Below, piece after piece: positions 10,024 to 63,989 of a DNA stretch of 64,000 bases (positions are counted from its first letter, which is position 1; the number at the start of each line of letters is the position of its first letter). The stretch covers positions 2,108,001 to 2,172,000 of the forward strand of contig NC_088711.1 in the NCBI RefSeq assembly GCF_963576615.1. The letters are read 5' to 3'. The notes under the pieces were generated by a model. That model had not been told where the DNA came from. It saw nothing but the letters and a program-made list of their open reading frames with translations, and ran no database searches. Source of the DNA: Watersipora subatra (taxonomy: Eukaryota > Bryozoa > Gymnolaemata > Cheilostomatida > Watersiporidae). A program made the translations under genes and the position numbers.

Positions 10024-18280
<8,257 letters not shown>

Positions 18281-50100: not shown

Positions 50101-53100
50101 ATATTTAAAACCTAGCTTTATTCTTAAATATTTTTAGAAGGCTAGTAAACGCTATATTCTAAAATACCTGCCTCAATTAGTAATGGTATAAACATATGAC
50201 ACCTGCTTCACTAAGCAAGAGTACAGCCATGTATGACACCTGCCTCAATTAGCAATGGTATAGATATATGACACCTGCCTCAATTAGAAATGGTACAGAC
50301 ATATATGACACCTGCCTCAGTTAGCAATGGTATAGACATATGACACCTGCCTCAGTGATGCCCACAATGATGCTCATGAAGGGATCTCACTGGGTCAGAG
50401 TATGAGACAGATTTATGTATTTTTTTTATTTTAGTCTTTTATTTTGATTTATATTAAATTTCTTTAATGAAAACTGTTTCCATTCTGAAGTTTGGAAACC
50501 CCAAAAGCTGACCTGCCAAGCGGTGAAGAATTACTTTAAATAAGAAAGCAGTAAAAAGAGTTTATTCATGTGAAACGTTAGACTGAAAGCTGCGTAAATC
50601 TGATCAGGGCAGAGACACTAAGGCAGAGACACTAAGGCAGAGACACTAAGGCAGAAAAACTAAGGCAGAGGTACCAAGCTATGTTACCTGCATGACTGCG
50701 GTTGTAGCTCGGATGTCCATGGGAAACTGGTCAGTATCCCAGCCCATATCAGCTGAGCCAGTGTTAGAATCGATAGAACCAAGCATGTTGTATCTGTAAG
50801 AATCCCACAAAATAGAGAGAATATAACCAAGAACTTGTAAGCTTACTATGACCCTTTTAAGATCGCATAAATGAAAATATACTACTATGGCTAAAGAGAT
50901 TATTGATACAATGCCTTTCAAACAGCCTCACAGGCCAATAAAGAGGCGGAGAAGGTAGATACCAAACAAGTGAATTCACCTGACTAACCATTGCAATTCA
51001 ATTGTTGCACAAATTACATTCAAATGTCACGCTATTGTAAATACATACGCAGCAGCAAAGGCGATGTCGTGCTCAAATGGATGTCCTGCCAAGGTTGTGT
51101 GATTTGGCTCCACGTTAATCTAAAAGATTTGACTCTAACATATGGGGAAGCTTGGCACTGGTAAAAAACTCTTATGATTATTTTAGGTAGCTTCTATGTC
51201 AGCAAAGAACATCATTGCTCGATAAATACAAGGTTTCTGCAACAGTCCTTCAGTGTACACTTAGAGATGCAAGATGTCGTACGACTAAGGTAGGAAATAG
51301 AGCCACAAACATCAGAGAGATTACACTAGTTTAATTTACACTATATTAATTTACACTAGATCATCACTAGTTTACACACACTCTAACTAATAACATAATA
51401 GATATCATATGGAATAGAAATATAATTTTACCTTAAAGTGTTTTTCCAGGTTGTAGGTTTTGAGAAAAGCAATAACAGTCATGGCATCTAAGGAACATAA
51501 GATGTTAACGTATAGAAGGGCACGCAGTATTAGAAAAGACAGGAGCAAACAAAGTCAAGAGGCAAACAACACACGCTAACAGATATTAGTTCTTGCTTGG
51601 TGCCGCACACTAACTCATGTGTACAATTGATCGTTTAGTAACAGGTAGAGTTCAACTCAACAAAATGTGTGAAACAGAAAGACACTCACACGAAGAGGCA
51701 GTGATGAACAGCACACAAACTTTACAATATGACTCACACACAAATACATGCTAATCAAGACTGAACTACTGATGGGTCTAGATGATAAAAGTGTGAGAGA
51801 TGTTTTGTAAAACAGAACAATGCATACCATAATCATACTGATGTCTAGTAGGTTCCTTCGCTTTGGGCTCAATAAGCAGCTGCCCATCGAAGCCAATCTG
51901 GGTCTTGTAACCTAAACAGGAAAGCAGAGATGAAATGATATCTGACAATTTCGCCTCACTTTTAGTTAAACTCAGTATGACAAAATCCAGCGGACGAAAG
52001 TACGTCCGCATACTCTCGTACGTCCGCGTACTCTCGTACGTCCGCGTACTCTCGTACGATAATCAGAAAATAATCTACCTGCACACATGCATATAGCAGT
52101 CAAGGCAGAATATACCAGCAATCTTCATATTTTCATACTGTATTTAACTTCACCAATCATCTTCATAGTCTCATATTTAACTTCACCAATCATCTTCATA
52201 CTCTCATGTTTAACTTCACCAATCATCTTCATACTCTCATGTTTAACTTCACCAATCATCTTCAGTCTCATATTTAACTACACCAATCATCTTCATAGTC
52301 TCATATTTAACTTCACCAATCATCTTCATAGTCTCATATTTAACTTCACCAATCATCTTCATACTCTCATATTTAACTTCACCAATCATCTTCATAGTCT
52401 CATATTTAACTTCACCAATCATCTTCATACTCTCATGTTTAACTTCACCAATCATCTTCATAGTCTCATATTTAACTTCACCAATCATCTTCATACTCTC
52501 ATATTTAACTTCACCAATCATCTTCATACTCTCATATTTAACTTCACCAATCATCTTCATAGTCTCATATTTAACTTCACCAATCATCTTCATACTCTCA
52601 TGTTTAACTTCACCAATCATCTTCATAGTCTCATATTTAACTTCACCAATCATCTTCATACTCTCATATTTAACTTCACCAATCATCTTCATACTCTCAT
52701 ATTTAACTTCACCAATCATCTTCATACTCTCATATTTAACTTCACCAATCATCTTCATAGTCCCATATTTAATTTCACCAATCATCTTCATAGTCTCATA
52801 TTTAACTTCACCAATCATCTTCATACTCTCATGTTTAACTTCACCAATCATCTTCATACTGTATTTAACTTCACCAATCATCTTCATACTCTCATATTTA
52901 ACTTCACCAATCATCTTCATACTCTCATATTTAACTTCACCAATCATCTTCATATTCTCATATTTAACTTCACCAATCATCTTCATACTCTCATATTTAA
53001 CTTCACCAATCATCTTCATAGTCTCATATTTAACTTCACCAATCATCTTCATACTCTCATATTTAACTTCACCAATCATCACATATACACAGAGTTTATG

Positions 53101-56100
53101 TTTTGAGTTGTGCACACTTGTTGTCATTTGCACATAGCTCAACACATATACATAGAGTTCATGTACACGCTGAAAAAATTGTCTGTTATATTTAAGATTC
53201 TTGGTATGAAGGCTTGTCGGTTCAGTTTATCTTGCAAATAAAATGATCTCCTCATGGCAATGATTAGTGATACCGTTACCATGCACCTATAAACCATGCT
53301 GGAGGACTAGCGATTCTTTGCTAATTGTTCTACCAATGAAGTAGAAAAGAGTAGAGCTTGGAAAACTCTAAACATCAATAACACTCTTTGCATGAAAAAT
53401 GAATAAAAAGGAATGAAATGATTGATACTTACTAATAACCATCTTGAAGAAGTTAGCCATGTGATCCAGCTCCTTCCTTATATCAGTATTGAGGAGGGTG
53501 CTGTAGCCCTCCCTACCTCCCCAAAACACTGTCAAATATTTAACGACTGATGTTGCAAACTTTTAAAGAAACCAGACAATGACCTCAGACCTCATTCTAT
53601 GAGTTTCGAGAAAGGTGATATGTTAGGCTCATCCAACTTCTTAAAAGAAAAAATTCTCTATCAGTCTTATTCCTCTCTATCTTATTCCTTGGTTAGCTCT
53701 ATCTTATCCCTCGGTTAGCTCTATCTTATCCTTTGTTTAGCTCTATCTCATCCCTCGGTTAGCTCTATTTTATCCCTTGGCTAGCTCTATCTTATCCCTT
53801 GGTTAATTCTATCTTATCCTTTGGTTAACTCTATTTTATCCCTTGATTAGCTTTATCTTATCCCTTGGTTAATTCTATCTTATTCTTTGGTTAACTTTAT
53901 CTTATCCCTTGGTTAGCTGCTGTGACCAGCTATGATGCTACGATAGACAAGCTGAAAGGCAAGCGATATACACCACTAACCAAAGTTCTTTGCTCCTAGC
54001 CGCTTTGCTACATCAAGGCCTTTCTTTACCTGCGCAGCAGCATAAGCAAATACATGCGCATCAGGATTTGTCAAAGCACCATTCATGTACCTGAAACCAA
54101 TGGCAGCAAACCTCAGCTGAAGCGCAGACGAGCATGGGGGTTCAGCGGGTAAGCTAACAAACATGTATAAGCAGACAACTCGAGAAGGACACATATTAAT
54201 ACATGGCATGCCTACGCCATGAAAGGACATGTGCTAAACACACTAAAACCAGTGCTAATACCAATATTGACACTAGTAAGATAGTCAGGGGGTAGCGGTT
54301 GGCTAGGAGTAAAAGCAAAGAACCCAGACACTCATATTTTCATCTGTTTGCTAAAGATGTTGCATGTGTTTCACAATGCTCAATTCGGTGAACAAACAGG
54401 TTACAGGTGCTCTACAGCACTCACCTTGAGTGAACAAACAGATTATAGGTGCTCTACAGCGCTCACCTTGAGTGAGCAAACAGGTTACAGATGCTCTACA
54501 GCACTCACCTTGGGTGAGCAAACAGGTTACAGATGCTCTACAGCACTCACCTTGGGTGAGCAAACAGGTTACAGGTGCTCCTACAGCACTCACCTTGGGT
54601 GAACAAACAGATTATAGGTGCTCTACAGCACTCACCTTGAGTGAGCAAACAGGTTACAGGTGCTCCTACAGCACTCACCTTGGGTGAACAAACAGGTTAC
54701 AGGTGCTCTACAGCGCTCACCTTGAGTGAACAAACAGGTTACAGGTGCTCTACAGCACTCACCTTGGGTGAGCAAACAGGTTACAGATGCTCTACAGCAC
54801 TCACCTTGGGTGAGCAAACAGGTTACAGATGCTCTACAGCACTCACCTTGGGTGAGCAAACAGGTTACAGGTGCTCCTACAGCACTCACCTTGAGTGAGC
54901 AAACAGGTTACAGATGCTCTACAGCACTCACCTTGGGTGAGCAAACAGGCTACAGATGCTCTACAGCACTCACCTTGGGTGAGCAAACAGGTTACAGATG
55001 CTCTACAGCACTCACCTTGGGTGAGCAAACAGGTTACAGGTGCTCCTACAGCACTCACCTTGAGTGAGCAAACAGGTTACAGATGCTCTACAGCACTCAC
55101 CTTGGGTGAGCAAACAGGTTACACGTATTCCATAACAACTTTATGTTGTATCTGGCCATCAGCTCTTCAGCAAGATCTACTAATTCATCTAAGTTTTTGT
55201 TGGTGGCCTCAAGGCTGGAGCCCTCTGGAGCAATATCTCTGTAACATTCATGCAAAGTCTAGAAGGCATCTGCTGACAGCAGCTTAATATTCAGATCATG
55301 CGAAAATTCCATAACTGCAAGCAGTAGCTTTCCCAACAAAAGTAGCATGCATTGGCTCCTGTTTCTGTGTCATATCGAGTAGGTGGCACTGACCATTTCA
55401 GGTATAGATCAGATACTCAACCATGACCCTCCAATGTTGGACACGGTACGAATCACCACGGTATCACAGAAAGGAGGAAGGAATAAGACTAAACTGTAAA
55501 TGTAGCGTGGCTACACACTCGTAACTAAGTGTGTAGCTGCCATACTAGATGGCATCAAAGGAGTGACATGAGAATTTTATAGAGTACAGTGGAACCTCGG
55601 TTTTCGAACGACTCGCAGTTCGAACAAATCGGAGTCCGAACAAAAAATTCAAGAAATTCTTGCTTCGTAGTTCGAACAAAAATCGGAGTTCGAATGCCGG
55701 TACGACGCGTGAGTGCGTACGTGAGGGTGGGATGCTGAGCGGCGTACGGGTGTAGATCGCTCTCTCCGTGACCAACTGTTGTCGCACGCGGACGTGCTGC
55801 GTTTTGCTCTCACGTTTTATATAGGTGTACGAAGTGTTTTAGCCCTTAATCATGCCTCCAAAGAAAGTCAGTGCAAGCCACCAGAGTCATCAATGACTTA
55901 AACGACACTATCATGAACCACTTCCGAAAAGTGCTAAAAAGAAGGCAGAAGCAAGTGTCATTGGATAGATATTTTAAGAGAAAAGAACATCCAGTATCCT
56001 AAAAAGTCCTATTCATAATTCTTTACTTTATCCTTTTTTTATTTTTATATGTTCATATTAGCGTAATCTTTCGTATGGAAGATTACGATAACGCGAACGT

Positions 56101-59100
56101 ACGATTAGCCTGGGTTACATTTATGTTTATGTTATTTGTGTCTTTGCCATTTTGCTTAACATTTTCTGAGATATACATTGCTTTTTATGTGTTGGTCAGC
56201 ATTTTAATGTGCAATTTCATGCATAAAATAACGTATAAAATACTAAAAAGGTAAACATTCAGGGTGTTGGAACGGATTAAAACGATTTACATTATTTGTA
56301 ATGGGAAAAATGATTTCGGTGTTCGAACAAATCGCTTTTCGAACAGGGTTTTGGAACGGATTATGGTCGAGAACCGAGGTTTTACTGTAATTATCTGCTT
56401 TAGCATTGTTACATTTGCCATAATGAATTTCAGATTTGCCTTTCTTGGTCTGTACTTTAGGTGGCCACGCACGAAAATACTGCTGACTGACCTTTTTTAC
56501 TGCTGTCCAAAAAAATCTACATAAGTCACAAATTTTACCAAAAAATTAAAAACATGAGCTGTCTTTATATTTTTGCTGCAGTAAAATAAGAGATTTTGTA
56601 TGAGCTGTTTTGTAATATTTGAACGGGTACGATAAAACAAAAGACCTTGTTGACTTCTCCCATAAAATATTACTCATTTGATTACGTTGACAGTAGGACT
56701 CACTTTTGTCATCAATATTAGGCCATCATCAGCAAGACTCTACAAATGCATCGAACAAAAATGCACACTTTGACTTCTGTTTTATGCATGCTAGTAGGAT
56801 GCTGGTAGGTTCTAGTTAGCCAACTTTATATTCCATTACATGGCTAAAATGACAATCATTTGTGTTTGGTGTTGAATAGGACAGGAAAAACTAATATTAA
56901 CCTTACTCAGAGTAGATATTTACCTGCTATAGACGAGCTAGTACTAGATTCTGGGTGGATATTTACCTGTCATGGAAGGACCAGTACTTCACTCCTAGCT
57001 TACTCATAAACTCAAAGGCAGCGTGCATCCTCCTTTTGGCATTGAACAAAGAGTCGGAGCCATCATCCCAAGGCCGTGAGATAGTCGGAAGCCCAAAAGG
57101 GTCAGCTCCTGCAACCATGCAGAGCCAATAAAATCATTGTAAACTATTCTGCCATAAAAGAAGGAAAGCTTTACAAAAATGTCGAATGAACAGATGCTTC
57201 TTAAAGTTGAGATACAATCAGCCAACTAACATGTATAACATTGACTATGAAACCGAAAATACCTACGTATGTATAATGTTCAGCCATGTTGATAATTGTA
57301 TTGGAGTGAGGATAGAATTAGGGTGATAGCTTTAGATAAACCAGGAAATGTGTGACACTTATGTAGCTTGTCACTTGCCTTAGCCTGTCACTTTGAATGT
57401 CTTGTCGTAGACTAACCCTAGCATCTGAATGTCATGTGTTGCACTCACCTGCCCCAAAAATGTGTTAAACTTACTCTGGCCCTTAAATGCTGTGTTAGAC
57501 TTACCCTGACCACTTTAGGGATGTTTTAGACTCACCCTGACCACTTTAGGGATGTTTTAGACTCACCCTGGCCACTATAGGGATGTGTTAGACTTACCCT
57601 GGCCGTGAATGGTGTGCTAGACTTAGCCTGGCCACTAAAAGGATGTGTTAGACTTACCCTGACCACTATAGGGATGTTTTAGACTCACCCTGACCACTAT
57701 AGGGATGTTTTAGACTTACCCTGACCATTTTAGGGATGTTTTAGACTCACCCTGGCCACTATAGGGATGTGTTAGACTTACCCTGGCCGTGAATGGTGTG
57801 TTAGACTTAGCCTGGCCACTAAAAGGATGTGTTAGACTTACCCTGGCCACTAAAGGAATGTGTTTAGGGTTGCACAATAGCTAAATAGTCGACTGCGATA
57901 GTCGGTAGTTGTCTTCTCGATATGAATATGTTGCTTATTTTTAGCCTATCAAAACATCCGAAACTTATATATCGTTATCGAATAATAAAACAGAATATAA
58001 CCCGATAGTTTTGCAGATAAAATCAAACTCGGATAACTCGCCCTCGGATAGCTCGAACACATGGTTAACTCGAACAGTTTTTTGCCCAACGGCTACTGCA
58101 ACGGTTGTTATCGCTTTAAAATATCACTTTATTCCTGGCCATAGAGATAAACCTCAACTTTTAGTAGTTCTTAAGCATCATTATTACCACCATCGGCAAA
58201 ATATTTTTATTAACAACTTTTCTAAAGGTTTGCAAAAAATCAAATTTTACCAGCTATCCCTTTAGCGCTGGCCCTCCGAAAGCAAGGAAAAGTGAGCTAA
58301 CCTTCGAATCAACTTTAAGAAAAATCGGCAAGCTTGATCTTGGTTAAAACGCTCAAAACAAAAAGATTTCTTTTCTTTTGAGCATGTCAACAGCGGATCA
58401 AGTTTAGCCAATTTTAATCTGAAAACGTCCTGGCAATCACATCACCTAAAGCAACAAACCAATCTCAAGTGATAAAAAGTCTCTATACTTTCTGATGACG
58501 TGTTTTTTAAACTTTAGAGTAGAAGCCTTTTAATTTGCAACAAGCCATCTATGCATTTAATTTATATATAGTTTGTATATATGTGTACATTTATCTACTA
58601 ATAAATACATTAACTTGTGACAGTGCTCTGATAACTCGAACACTTTTGTTCGGTCCCGTGAAGTTAGAGGTATCCGACTTTGCTTGTAGTTTTTATTTTT
58701 TCTGCAAATTTTTTTCTGCAGCCCTTCCTATCCCTTCCCACAATCCTCGATCTTTTCAGGCACGATAATACGATAGTTTTCCCAGCTGCCAAGTCACGCG
58801 ATAACTATCGGTGAACTCTGTCTGCTCATTGATAATTCGATAGCTATCGCTGGGACAACTCCAACGATAGTCGATAACACCTCTCCAAACCACAAACGCC
58901 ATCCCTAGATGTGTTAGACTTACCCTGGCCCTTAAACGGTTTGTTAGACACCCTGGCCTCTGAATGTTGTGTTAGCCTTACCCTGGCCTCTGAATGTTGT
59001 GTTAGACTTACCCCGGCCCCTGAATGGTGTGTTATACTTACCCTGGCCCCTGAATGTGTGCCAGTAGCAGACGCTAAACCTTAGCCATTCAGCCATCGTT

Positions 59101-59114
59101 TTGCCATTTATCAC
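47104..59114 (-). CDS. xylA: Xylose isomerase, eukaryotic intron-rich copy, first exon missing
   Basis: Twelve exons in order: 59114-59042, 57108-56967, 55238-55101, 54090-53981, 53528-53433, 51911-51828, 51487-51432, 51119-51049, 50793-50688, 48942-48840, 48367-48213, 47187-47104 (stop TAG). Phases fit throughout; 405 residues, so about 30 N-terminal residues are lacking compared with class II enzymes. It interconverts xylose and xylulose in a metal-dependent TIM barrel. Catalytic and metal residues are all visible: the His of WSFHD (about 69), Glu of [17 protein letters not shown] (201), Glu and His of NVEPNH (237, 240), Asp of LGSIDSN (265), Asps of GWDTDQFP (276, 278) and Asp of LNFDAKVRR (308). 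Both family signatures are present ([16 protein letters not shown]; the LIEPK block). Twelve introns-split exons show it is a resident animal gene, not bacterial contamination. The exon for the first residues was not found up to 64000. Confidence 0.95.
49866..50010. repeat. Tandem duplication, about 68-bp unit, 2.1 copies
   Basis: Two near-identical copies containing GCACTATTGTATAATTCACC and GATACAGCTGATAGGAACCT, in xylose isomerase intron 9. Confidence 0.85.
50170..50355. repeat. Imperfect repeat, about 36-bp unit, 5 copies
   Basis: Units containing GACACCTGCCTCAATTAG and AATGGTATAGACATA, in xylose isomerase intron 9. A shorter (GGCAGAGACACTAA)n run of four copies lies at 50607-50670 just beside exon 50793-50688. 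Confidence 0.8.
52002..52058. repeat. 18-bp tandem repeat, 3 copies
   Basis: Unit TACGTCCGCGTACTCTCG, rich in CpG and CGTACG palindromes, in xylose isomerase intron 5 just before the 33-bp array. Confidence 0.85.
52130..53080. repeat. 33-bp minisatellite, about 29 units
   Basis: Unit AACTTCACCAATCATCTTCA followed by TACTCTCATATTT; variants TAGTCTC/TACTCTC and ATATTT/ATGTTT alternate. It occupies most of xylose isomerase intron 5. Open frames on both strands (339 and 298 codons) follow from the 33-bp period and are not genes. Confidence 0.96.
53680..53920. repeat. 22-bp tandem repeat, about 11 units
   Basis: Imperfect unit CTTGGTTAGCTCTATCTTATCC in xylose isomerase intron 4. Confidence 0.88.
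54380..55123. repeat. 42-bp minisatellite made of copies of an exon end plus its 5' splice site
   Basis: Seventeen intronic copies plus the real exon end (55101-55123). On the transcript strand each unit holds the last 23 bases of exon 55238-55101 (ending CTGTTTGCTCACCCAAG), then GTGAGTGCTGTAGAGCA. So every unit repeats the exon-donor junction AAG/GTGAGT. The array begins at the true splice site and fills most of the intron. Confidence 0.93.
55587..56387. mobile_element. pogo/Tigger-type element, internally deleted
   Basis: Inverted ends CAGTGGAACCTCGGTT.TCGA (55587 onwards) and the complement ending at 56387, with TA on both sides (55585-55586, 56388-56389). Inside, an ATG at 55852 opens [11 protein letters not shown] and a nearby frame ends [15 protein letters not shown]. 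These resemble the first and last residues of Tigger/CENP-B-like transposases, joined by loss of everything between. Lies in xylose isomerase intron 2. Confidence 0.8.
57440..59071. repeat. 31-bp minisatellite made of copies of an exon end plus its 5' splice site, split by a transposon
   Basis: About 17 clear units in two blocks (57440-57864 and 58908-59041) adjoining exon 59114-59042. On the transcript strand units read CATTCAGGGGCCAGG then GTAAGTCTAACACA or close variants; the first 15 bases match the exon end. Most units keep GTAAG or GTGAG; two have CTAAG instead. A block with GTGAATGGTGTG is itself repeated 183 bp apart. More decayed units extend to about 57390. Confidence 0.92.
57865..58907. 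mobile_element. hAT-like element inserted in the 31-bp array, with a nested MITE
   Basis: Near-duplicated 8-mers AATGTGTT (57857-57864) and GATGTGTT (58908-58915) flank it. The ends TAGGGTTGC.. and ..GCCATCCCTA are only partly inverted; CGATAGTCG-type motifs recur near both ends. Within it, about 58014-58684 is a copy, in reverse, of the TA-flanked MITE at 619-1743 (shared GGATAACTCG ends and the TTGTTCGGTCCCGTGAAGTT end block). Confidence 0.65.
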
Positions 59115-59766: not shown

Positions 59767-62700
59767 GCAGAATGAGTTGAATGATCCTGTTAGTGCAGTG
59801 ATCTGTTTTGGCACAAAGATAGCACCTACTATCTATGAAATGAATGAGTTGAATGATCCTGTTAGCAGAGCTGCTCTCAAATCATGGTGATTTGAATATT
59901 TGAATATTTGAAGCAAATCATTTTGTACTGATTTGACACAAATGATGATTTGATTCGATTTGAAAAGCTTTGGAAGTAACTTGAGTTGATTTGAAGTTTC
60001 GGGCTGATTTGAAGACTTGATTTGAAAAATAATTCAAATCACATCGCTATTGATAGCCTTGTCTTCTGTAACCGATCGAAACATTTTCACGACATTTGCG
60101 AAGTTAGCCCAAACTTTGGCAAGAAATGCACACCATCAGTACCGAGGCTAAGCAACCGCGTGTGTGTGTCTCTCTACAGAAAAAAGAAAAGGACCGCGTG
60201 TCGTGTGTGTAAAAGAAATCAACATGAGCAGCTCTGGTAAGTTGTGGAAAAGGCATGTTTGTAGTTGTGGTGCTGGCATTGAATACTTTGATGTCAATTA
60301 TTTGATTGCTAGTAATTGGTTGTGACTATCCCACTCTAACCTCACAATCACTAGCCAAAATAAAAATTACTTGTGCTGTGCCTACGGCATGAATGAATGA
60401 ATATAGTATTATAATATATAATATTCTATACAATACTATTCCATGCCGCCGACACATTCAATATTCACAGTAATGACAATGTTCATGAATATAAATATGC
60501 ATTATATTATAATTGGGTAGGATTTAATTTATAAAATAAATTAAAATTTTATTTGTTATATCAAATTTATTAGAATAATATTAAATAACATTTTGATTTA
60601 ATTTATTATTTTAAATTATAAAAAAATAGCATAACAATAACATTCTATCCAAGTAAGTATAATAAATGTAATATTTATATATCATACATAGTTTTAACAT
60701 TTATCTATACATTATTATTATATAATTAATTATATTATATGTATAATAATATAATTAATAATATTTTATACACAGTCACTTACTTACTAAGTGAAGTATA
60801 ATACTTAAAACGGGATTTCGATTAAAAAGGACGATGTACAGAAAGAGGAAGTCACATGCACTCAGCAAATACAAACATGTGTTAATGAAGATACGTTCGC
60901 TGATTTTTTGAATAGAGCACCTTTAGCTAGTACAAGTAACCTAGATTCAGTACATCAGGAGATTGAAAAGTATATGGCGAAAAGCAGATTTTCTTGTAAC
61001 ACTCTAAGCTATTGGCAAGGTGAGACACAGTTACTGAGGCTTAGCAAGCTGGCGCTGAGGGTCCTTTTAGTACCAGCTTCATCAGCTCCCATAGAACGGG
61101 TTTTTAGTAAAAGTGGCTTCATCATGAGGCCACACAGGAGCTCCTTGACATCTGAAAACTTGCGCAAGCTAGTTTTTCTAAAATGCAACAAGTGTATTTA
61201 AGTAAATGTGTTAATATAATGTAACTGTTGATTATAGGCTCAATGCTTAGTTTCATTTCCTTCAAGTTCAAGCCTCAGTAACTGTGTTTCACTTGCCAAT
61301 ATTTTCAGGTTTTATCTTATACTTGTATCTTATATTTTGTAACTTTAAAAAAGTATCGAAAGTTGTTTTTTTTACATTTGTACATTCTTGCTTAAAAGCT
61401 TCAATAAAAGCAGTCACAGCCATGACCACAAACTGTTACATAACCCTCCACTCATTCATTGATGTATCCAGCCAATGGTATGATGTGCTTTGCCATGATG
61501 TTTTAATATACCTCGAAGAACACAGAAAAAAACCTTATCTAGTGATGATTTTAGCATACATAACACATATAGTGGTACAGAGATACAGCTATACTATTCC
61601 TATCCATAGAACCCAAAACGGGCACGGGGCAAATCCCCTACCCTTTCCCCCTGGTTCAGGTCCAATGGATAGGAAGAGTACAGACTATGCCGCTACAGCT
61701 ACACTGTAGATTGATCATACTATGCAATAATTGAGCAAACAATTTGAAAGAGTATTTCAAATCATTCTCAAATGATTCAGGATTTGAATTCGTTATTGAG
61801 CTGATTCGATTTGATTTGCTTTGAATCTGCCGACAACGGTAGGGGATTTGATTTGATTTGTAGTTTGCCGGATATGATTTGAGTCATAAAAAAGTCATTT
61901 GAAAGCAGCTCTGCCTGTTAGTGCAGTGATCTGTTTTGGCACAAAGGTAGCACCTACTATCTATGAAATGAATGAGTTGAATGATCCGGTTAGTGCAGTG
62001 ATCTGTTTTGGTACAAAGGTAGCACCTACTATCTATGAAATGAATGAGTTGAATGATCCTGTTAGTGCAGTGATCTGTTTTGGTACAAAGGTAGCACCTA
62101 CTATCTATGAAATGAATGAGTTGAATGATCCTGTTAATGCAGTGATCTGTTTTGGTACAAAGGTAGCACCTACTATCTATGAAATGAATGAGTTGAATGA
62201 TCCTGTTAGTGCAGTGATCTGTTTTGGTACAAAGGTAGCACCTACTATCTATGAAATGAATGAGTTGAATGATCCTGTTAGTGCAGTGATCTGTTTTGGT
62301 ACAAAGGTAGCACCTACTATCTATGAAATGAATGAGTTGAATGATCCTGTTAGTGCAGTGATCTGTTTTGGTACAAAGGTAGCACCTACTATCTATGAAA
62401 TGAATGAGTTGAATGATCCTGTTAGTGCAGTGATCTGTTTTGGTACAAAGGTAGCACCTACTATCTATGAAATGAATGAGTTGAATGATCCTGTTAGTGC
62501 AGTGATCTGTTTTGGTACAAAGGTAGCACCTACTATCTATGAAATGAATGAGTTGAATGATCCTGTTAGTGCAGTGATCTGTTTTGGTACAAAGGTAGCA
62601 CCTACTATCTATGAAATGAATGAGTTGAATGATCCTGTTAATGCAGTGATCTGTTTTGGTACAAAGGTAGCACCTACTATCTATGAAATGAATGAGTTGA

Positions 62701-63989
62701 ATGATCCTGTTAGTGCAGTGATCTGTTTTGGTACAAAGGTAGCACCTACTATCTATGAAATGAATGAGTTGAATGATCCTGTTAGTGCAGTGATCTGTTT
62801 TGGTACAAAGGTAGCACCTACTATCTATGAAATGAATGAGTTGAATGATCCTGTTAGTGCAGTGATCTGTTTTGGTACAAAGGTAGCACCTACTATCTAT
62901 GAAATGAATGAGTTGAATGATCCGGTTAGTGCAGTGATCTGTTTTGGCACAAAGGTAGCACCTACTATCTATGAAATGAATGAGTTGAATGATCCCGTTA
63001 GTGCAGTGATCGGTTTTGGTACAAAGGTAGCACCTACTATCTATGAAATGAATGAGTTGAATGATCCTGTTAGTGCAGTGATCTGTTTTGGTACAAAGGT
63101 AGCACCTACTATCTATGAAATGAATGAGTTGAATGATCCTGTTAGTGCAGTGATCTGTTTTGGCACAAAGGTAGCACCTACTATCTATGAAATGAATGAG
63201 TTGAATGATCCTGTTAGTGCAGTGATCTGTTTTGGTACAAAGGTAGCACCTACTATCTATGAAATGAATGAGTTGAATGATCCTGTTAGTGCAGTGATCT
63301 GTTTTGGTACAAAGGTAGCACCTACTATCTATGAAATGAATGAGTTGAATGATCCTGTTAGTGCAGTGATCTGTTTTGGCACAAAGGTAGCACCTACTAT
63401 CTATGAAATGAATGAGTTGAATGATCCCGTTAGTGCAGTGATCTGTTTTGGTACAAAGGTAGCACCTACTATCTATGAAATGAATGAGTTGAATGATCCT
63501 GTTAGTGCAGTGATCTGTTTTGGTACAAAGGTAGCACCTATTATCTATGAAATGAATGAGTTGAATGATCCTGTTAGTGCAGTGATCTGTTTTGGCACAA
63601 AGGTAGCACCTACTATCTATGAAATGAATGAGTTGAATGATCCTGTTAGTGCAGTGATCGGTTTTGGTACAAAGGTAGCACCTACTATCTATGAAATGAA
63701 TGAGTTGAATGATCCTGTTAGTGCAGTGATCTGTTTTGGTACAAAGGTAGCACCTACTATCTATGAAATGAATGAGTTGAATGATCCCGTTAGTGCAGTG
63801 ATTGGTTTTGGTACAAAGGTAGCACCTACTATCTATGAAATGAATGAGTTGAATGATCCTGTTAGTGCAGTGATCTGTTTTGGTACAAAGGTAGCACCTA
63901 CTATCTATGAAATGAATGAGTTGAATGACCCTGTTAGTGCAGTGATCTGTTTTGGTACAAAGGTAGCACCTACGATCTATGAAATGTAA
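59767..63989. repeat. 72-bp minisatellite, about 30 units, interrupted by a hAT element
   Basis: One unit and part of the next at 59767-59865, then about 29 units at 61914-63989. The plus frame translates as VSAVICFGTKVAPTIYEMNE followed by LNDP, 24 residues per unit, open for 696 codons and ending in TAA at 63987. Units differ by single bases, both silent and amino-acid changing. GGC variants at 62947, 63163, 63379 and 63595 are 216 bp apart, a three-unit higher-order period. An in-frame TAG lies just before the first unit. Confidence 0.95.
59866..61913 (+). mobile_element. hAT transposon, 2,048 bp, with C-terminal transposase remnant
   Basis: Inverted ends CAGAGCTGCTCTCAAATCA (59866) and the near complement ending at 61913, flanked by the exact 8-bp duplication CCTGTTAG (59858-59865, 61914-61921). 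A plus frame at 60908-61201 encodes the hAT dimerisation domain: LSYWQGE, LRLSKLALRVLLVPASSAPI, ERVFSKSGFIMRPHRSSLT, ENLRKLVFLKCN. The rest of the transposase is gone or unreadable, so it is not autonomous. Motifs of ATTTGA are frequent inside both ends. Confidence 0.93.

Follow-up and report, generated by a model that had tools for sequence, protein, structure and literature searches.

A minisatellite at a splice junction of the Watersipora subatra xylose isomerase gene carries a splice donor in every complete unit

A minisatellite placed at an exon-intron junction of the human gene IFI-6-16 reportedly supplies several splice donors, as Turri et al. are said to have described in 1995. Its units, of about 12 bp, are said to be in frame, and several of the donors are reportedly used. 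The array described below, from the bryozoan Watersipora subatra, resembles this case in that minisatellite-size units span an exon-intron boundary and a donor is present in 17 of the 17 complete units. It differs in that the units are 42–43 bp long, 23 nt of each derive from conserved coding sequence, the later donors are closed by TGA, and arrays of this sort recur at unrelated genes of one genome.

Two further known phenomena resemble what is seen at this locus. Zhuo et al. (2007) reportedly proposed intron gain by tandem duplication crossing a boundary. Recursive splice sites, which serve as ratchet points, have the consensus C/T-AG followed directly by GTRAGT. As in these sites, the donor in the xylose isomerase (XI) array directly follows a pyrimidine-rich stretch ending in AG, but this stretch ends in AAG rather than C/T-AG and the sites stand in tandem at 42-nt spacing. 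Intron gain via tandem duplication of AGGT-containing segments is set out in an excerpt of PMC4974935; the XI tandem duplication likewise crosses a splice boundary and multiplies splice signals, but the XI acceptor lies outside the repeat and no new intron is evident.

Human genes that lie in segmental duplications are also described as having internal tandem repeats (units averaging ~30 bp) where exon meets intron, and these can alter splicing (PMC2812944). Those repeats belong to recently duplicated primate genes compared as paralogues, whereas the XI unit is confined to a single locus, is seeded by an exon end and bears a donor in each copy. An excerpt on earthworm metallothionein describes intron minisatellites and names no splice-junction source for them (PMC12783039). 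Searches of the open-licence PMC literature turned up no bryozoan with arrays of this sort. The kind is already known from the human cases, and the bryozoan arrays belong to it. What did not appear in the open-licence PMC literature searched is recurrence across unrelated genes of one bryozoan and an in-frame array in a kinesin gene, nor did long exon-derived units, or a closed frame in one XI array beside open frames in the kinesin array and in the other XI array.

The XI array and its source exon

The window (C4:2108001-2172000) is a stretch of 64,000 nucleotides from the published W. subatra genome (783.70 Mb according to an excerpt of PMC12902671). Its minus-strand gene is identified as XI by homology over the protein together with the family domain: 380 amino acids spliced by hand are 100% identical to part of P0001, a 461-aa RefSeq protein of W. 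subatra (xylose isomerase-like), and the family domain PF01261 is matched at E 8.7e-10. Searching with P0001 by tblastn placed 12 coding pieces in order within 59114-47107, corresponding to residues 57-461; for residues 1-56 the same search gave no placement in the window. Features are listed in Table 1.

Table 1. Positions of the two XI junction arrays and associated features in the window.
Feature	Position	Strand	Basis
XI coding exon; ends in phase 2 (AG/G); last 23 nt supply the exon-derived portion of the unit	55101..55238	minus	translation, match to P0001
True donor GTGAGT	55095..55100	minus	sequence parse and protein continuity HPR/YMNGA in P0001
42/43-bp minisatellite, 17.5 copies, begins 23 nt inside the exon	54387..55123	minus	TRF, direct parse
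16 copied donors, first 55058, last 54424	54419..55058	minus	direct parse
Truncated 18th copy without donor	about 54375..54405	minus	direct parse
Non-repeat rest of intron, acceptor TTTCAG at its end	54091..54382	minus	sequence
Next XI exon	53981..54090	minus	translation and tblastn
XI exon whose end seeds the second donor array	59040..59114	minus	tblastn of P0001
30-bp donor array, 5.1 copies, begins inside exon 59040..59114	58910..59060	minus	TRF and parse
31-bp array, 13.2 copies, unit resembles that of 58910-59060, deeper in the same intron	57460..57864	minus	TRF and parse

The larger array was called by TRF with a period of 42 and a 93% match, and its units were then parsed directly for AAG followed by GTGAG[T/C]G. 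This gave 17 intact donors (the genuine splice site, at 55100, plus 16 copies of it) with donor-to-donor spacings of 42 or 43 nt; 15 of the 17 read GTGAGT and two read GTGAGC. An initial annotation of this DNA had described 17 extra copies of the junction and 18 near-identical donors. The copies are real, but they number 16 complete and one truncated, and the eighteenth (CACCGAATTGAGC) has lost its donor, so that the statement that every unit keeps a donor applies to the 17 complete units and fails for the last. The same annotation was correct in placing the start of the row at the real splice site, on which TRF and the direct parse agree.

The exon ends in the 23 nt TGTAACCTGTTTGCTCACCCAAG, which are followed by GTGAGTGCTGTAGAGCATC, and it is the resulting 42-bp piece that repeats. 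In agreement with the earlier description of the unit as the exon end joined to the true donor GTGAGT, the 23 nt are found again in copies 1-16 with 0 to 4 mismatches (exact in 7 of 16). Since the best ungapped match to them elsewhere in the window is 16/23, chance similarity of the units to the exon end was ruled out. Variation among units consists of transitions and of a 1-nt insertion in 4 of 17. The 150 nt following donor 4 are identical to the 150 nt following the true donor (donor 0), and growth of the array has therefore proceeded partly by four-unit blocks. Beyond the array, about 290 nt of non-repeat DNA are crossed before the acceptor at 54091 is reached.

The direction of copying was judged from the protein. 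The exon end encodes TCNLFAHPR, which is exact in 9 of 15 aligned sequences and one or two residues off in the other 6, these 15 having been chosen among 120 listed of 8,000 matches (14 of the 15 come from named animals). This conservation in animals points to the exon as the old part and the source, and to the array as a derived copy of it. Searching the genome with 635 nt of the array returned three matches, all at the XI locus; on this result we rejected an origin of the array from a mobile element or from a satellite dispersed in the genome (note that the search skips very common words).

Our preferred reading, which we regard as probable, is that the minisatellite was born by tandem duplication across the 5' splice site and has been tolerated because the exon-proximal donor is used. 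A duplication with its left edge 23 nt inside the exon would have copied exon end and donor into the intron, and slippage or unequal exchange would then have expanded the array to about 17.5 copies, partly as four-unit blocks. A donor would be present in each copy only because the seed carried one. The genome is rich in minisatellites, and the same process may have operated at further splice junctions in it.

Several other features were recorded in the window. Another XI intron (52141-53080, minus strand) holds a 33-bp array of 28.6 copies that is mostly one long open frame. A 72-bp array of 28.8 copies, 98% alike, occupies 61914-63986, and a short piece of a similar unit can be made out by eye near 59780-59860. 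The plus strand carries exons of a Ribosomal_S11-family protein, which we take to be RPS14, at 10131-10529 and 12190-12510, and a PH-domain exon lies on the minus strand at 21240-21004.

Junction arrays elsewhere in the genome

The XI junction array is not singular, there being a second one in the same gene and more in other genes. Exon 59114-59040 ends in ATTCAGGGGCCAGG, directly followed by GTAAGT, and this end starts the 30-bp array, in which the first three copies can be read through in frame. Deeper in the intron, past a spacer of about 1,045 bp of other sequence, stand about 13 similar units. This spacer begins with AGGGATGGCG and ends with TGCAACCCT, a weak inverted match that is perhaps that of a mobile element.

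In the first 3.48 Mb of C1, 8 distinct loci with triple donors were delimited by eye. Six were judged, leaving out 2193k (where the stretch lies inside the array) and 3480k (where the upstream end falls outside the stretch). The end of an exon coincides with the array start in 2 of the 6, a DNMT1 exon at 1460k and an open exon at 1754k, and no sense exon stands at the array start in the other four (352k, 521k, 2139k and 2327k). The DNMT1 exon was identified jointly with the preceding exon (E 2.2e-39 to PDB DNMT1); searched alone, it has no Pfam match. The open stretch at 1754k, for which no match was found in Pfam or PDB, is a probable exon. The array at 3480k runs from G000:C1:3480598 to beyond 3483350 (>2.7 kb); in it CAGGTAAGT recurs at intervals of about 28 bases.

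Kinesin genes were surveyed using the best 90 of 131 matches; neighbouring matches sometimes share arrays (e.g. L050/L119), so these are not fully independent. Donors are spanned by arrays in 2 of the 90, L044 and L116. In L044 the array takes in about 9 nt of exon, as judged by eye. In L116 (G000:C1:56449304-56450353) the exon's terminal 38 nt, SSRSHSVFTVTL, together with GTAAGTG form a 45-bp unit, (GKCSSRSHSVFTVTL)n, which begins at about base 560, is repeated in 10.9 copies up to the end of the stretch and keeps the frame open through all copies seen. Any donor of L116 would give an in-frame product, and L116 is closer to IFI-6-16 than the XI array is. In L110 the array begins at about intron position +4. 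On the acceptor side, the arrays of L060, L074 and L106 end at the AG, that of L098 ends three bases short of it, and that of L059 ends at the acceptor or about 20 nt before.

Array edges were counted in these kinesin matches with corrections by hand at the donors of L044 and L116 and the acceptors of L060, L074 and L106. At donors, 3 edges fell in the 50-nt junction window (1 by script, 2 added by hand) versus a mean of 2.5 per 50 nt across the next 400 nt; arrays occur at donors about as often as they do deeper in introns, and thus no special targeting is seen at kinesin donors. At acceptors, 5 edges fell in the junction window (3 by script, 2 by hand; 4 without L059) versus about 1.6 per 50 nt, and acceptor-side arrays may be in mild excess.

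Donor-bearing arrays were also compared with a control in which the motif was reversed. Triple AGGTRAGT patterns numbered 6,023 versus 688 for the reversed pattern, and distinct loci, clustered by eye, numbered 8 in 3.48 Mb versus 6 in 36.97 Mb, or about 14-fold denser. A stricter donor pattern gave 443 matches versus 68 for its reverse, the listed matches coming from two arrays. Outside arrays, in 163 kb sampled from exon-rich DNA, single motifs numbered 17 versus 7, a smaller excess than that of the array loci. With 2 of the 6 judged arrays beginning at an exon, seeding at junctions accounts for some of the donor-array excess; something besides it may favour donor-bearing arrays.

Donor choice and alternative explanations

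Translation past the true donor reads HPR-stop-VL-stop, confirming the earlier observation that read-through meets an in-frame TGA at once. P0001 reads HPR-YMNGA at the junction with no inserted residues, and so does P0002 (from a 1,689-nt contig, 82-83% identity). P0001, itself a computed model, strongly suggests that the first donor is the one used; it fits the previous proposal that only this donor yields the enzyme, since later ones keep the TGA. Any later donor, leaving the TGA just past the exon, would give a truncated and probably degraded message. The extra donors would then be mostly passive, at most weak competitors.

In exon definition an exon is recognised between its acceptor and the nearest donor. 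Such recognition would favour the first donor; in the mirror arrays it would likewise fit splicing to the last acceptor. Predicted RNA structure was examined as well. The exon-derived arm GCTCACC and its variants (7 bases, just before the donor) can pair fully with GGTGAGT/C in 17 of 17 units (54424-55123, minus strand), in some by G-U pairs. Folding of the first XI unit gave z -1.53, a fold that 16 of 200 shuffles equalled; across nine folded sequences (four XI units and five other junctions) z ranged from -1.75 to +0.43. A hairpin masking the donor was set aside, the fold of the first unit not being exceptional against shuffles. The stretch that was folded takes in 14 of the 17 donors; their predicted mean unpaired probability was 0.14-0.25, with 0.24 for the first donor, so predicted structure gives the first donor no advantage.

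The initial annotation raised the possibility that the array acts as a U1-binding decoy. A selected function of this kind, by which XI splicing would be slowed or tuned and the proportion of unproductive transcripts would depend on copy number, would account for the unbroken run of 17 near-identical strong donors, for the GTGAG kept in every complete copy and for donor-bearing arrays being commoner in the genome than the reversed control. The donor columns show no excess conservation: of the unit's 42 nine-base windows, 13 show variation equal to or lower than that of the donor (17 young copies give this comparison little power), and selection keeping the donors is not supported by the unit sequences. 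Kinesin junction arrays at donors are also no commoner than deeper intron arrays. We consider such a function improbable.

The units might instead act as recursive splice sites, with removal of the intron in steps, in each of which the copied exon end (pyrimidine-rich, ending in AG) would be the acceptor and would be joined to the next donor. Acceptor-like and donor-like sequences do abut, in that CCTGTTTGCTCACCCAAG is directly followed by GTGAGT, and the form is matched better still in L116 (TTTAG followed by GTAAGT) and at C1:1754k (CTACAG followed by GTAAGT). On the XI acceptor side, CCAAG or TCAAG precedes GTGAGT or GTGAGC, which departs from the C/T-AG consensus, and the 42-nt spacing is below the usual size of metazoan introns unless several units are skipped. 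We consider recursive splicing here very unlikely.

Slightly less credible again is that the duplication created the intron itself. An AGGT-containing exon end has been duplicated, as the intron-gain model demands (excerpt of PMC4974935), but the acceptor lies in the non-repeat DNA past the array and does not itself copy the unit, and the array thus did not supply both splice sites; the connection to intron origin drawn in the initial annotation is accordingly weak. Tandem repeats are prone to misassembly, but with an array of only 737 bp in an assembly from PacBio HiFi reads (excerpt of PMC12902671), units that differ in an ordered fashion and junction arrays present at other genes, we give an assembly artefact almost no credence.

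Implications for Watersipora

The arrays invite a wider and rather doubtful generalisation, which we offer tentatively: Watersipora junctions, at the acceptor as well as the donor end of exons, may time and again give rise to minisatellites, such that many exons are flanked by near-identical sites and are recognised only via exon-proximal choice. Where units are in frame, as in L116 and in the first copies of 59060-58910, changes in copy number might then produce graded protein isoforms.

Most work on how identical splice sites compete has relied on minigenes built by hand. The XI locus is nature's version, with 17 near-identical donors in a row, a conserved enzyme and one productive choice, and the same genome adds mirror cases at acceptors as well as in-frame cases. 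RNA-seq of the species (BioProject PRJEB62167), mentioned in an excerpt of PMC12902671, could be used to count donor choice per unit and would provide a direct test of exon versus intron definition. The birth of minisatellites may be a route by which raw splice sites are fed into introns, and junction arrays offer natural experiments on the choice of the correct splice site by the cell.
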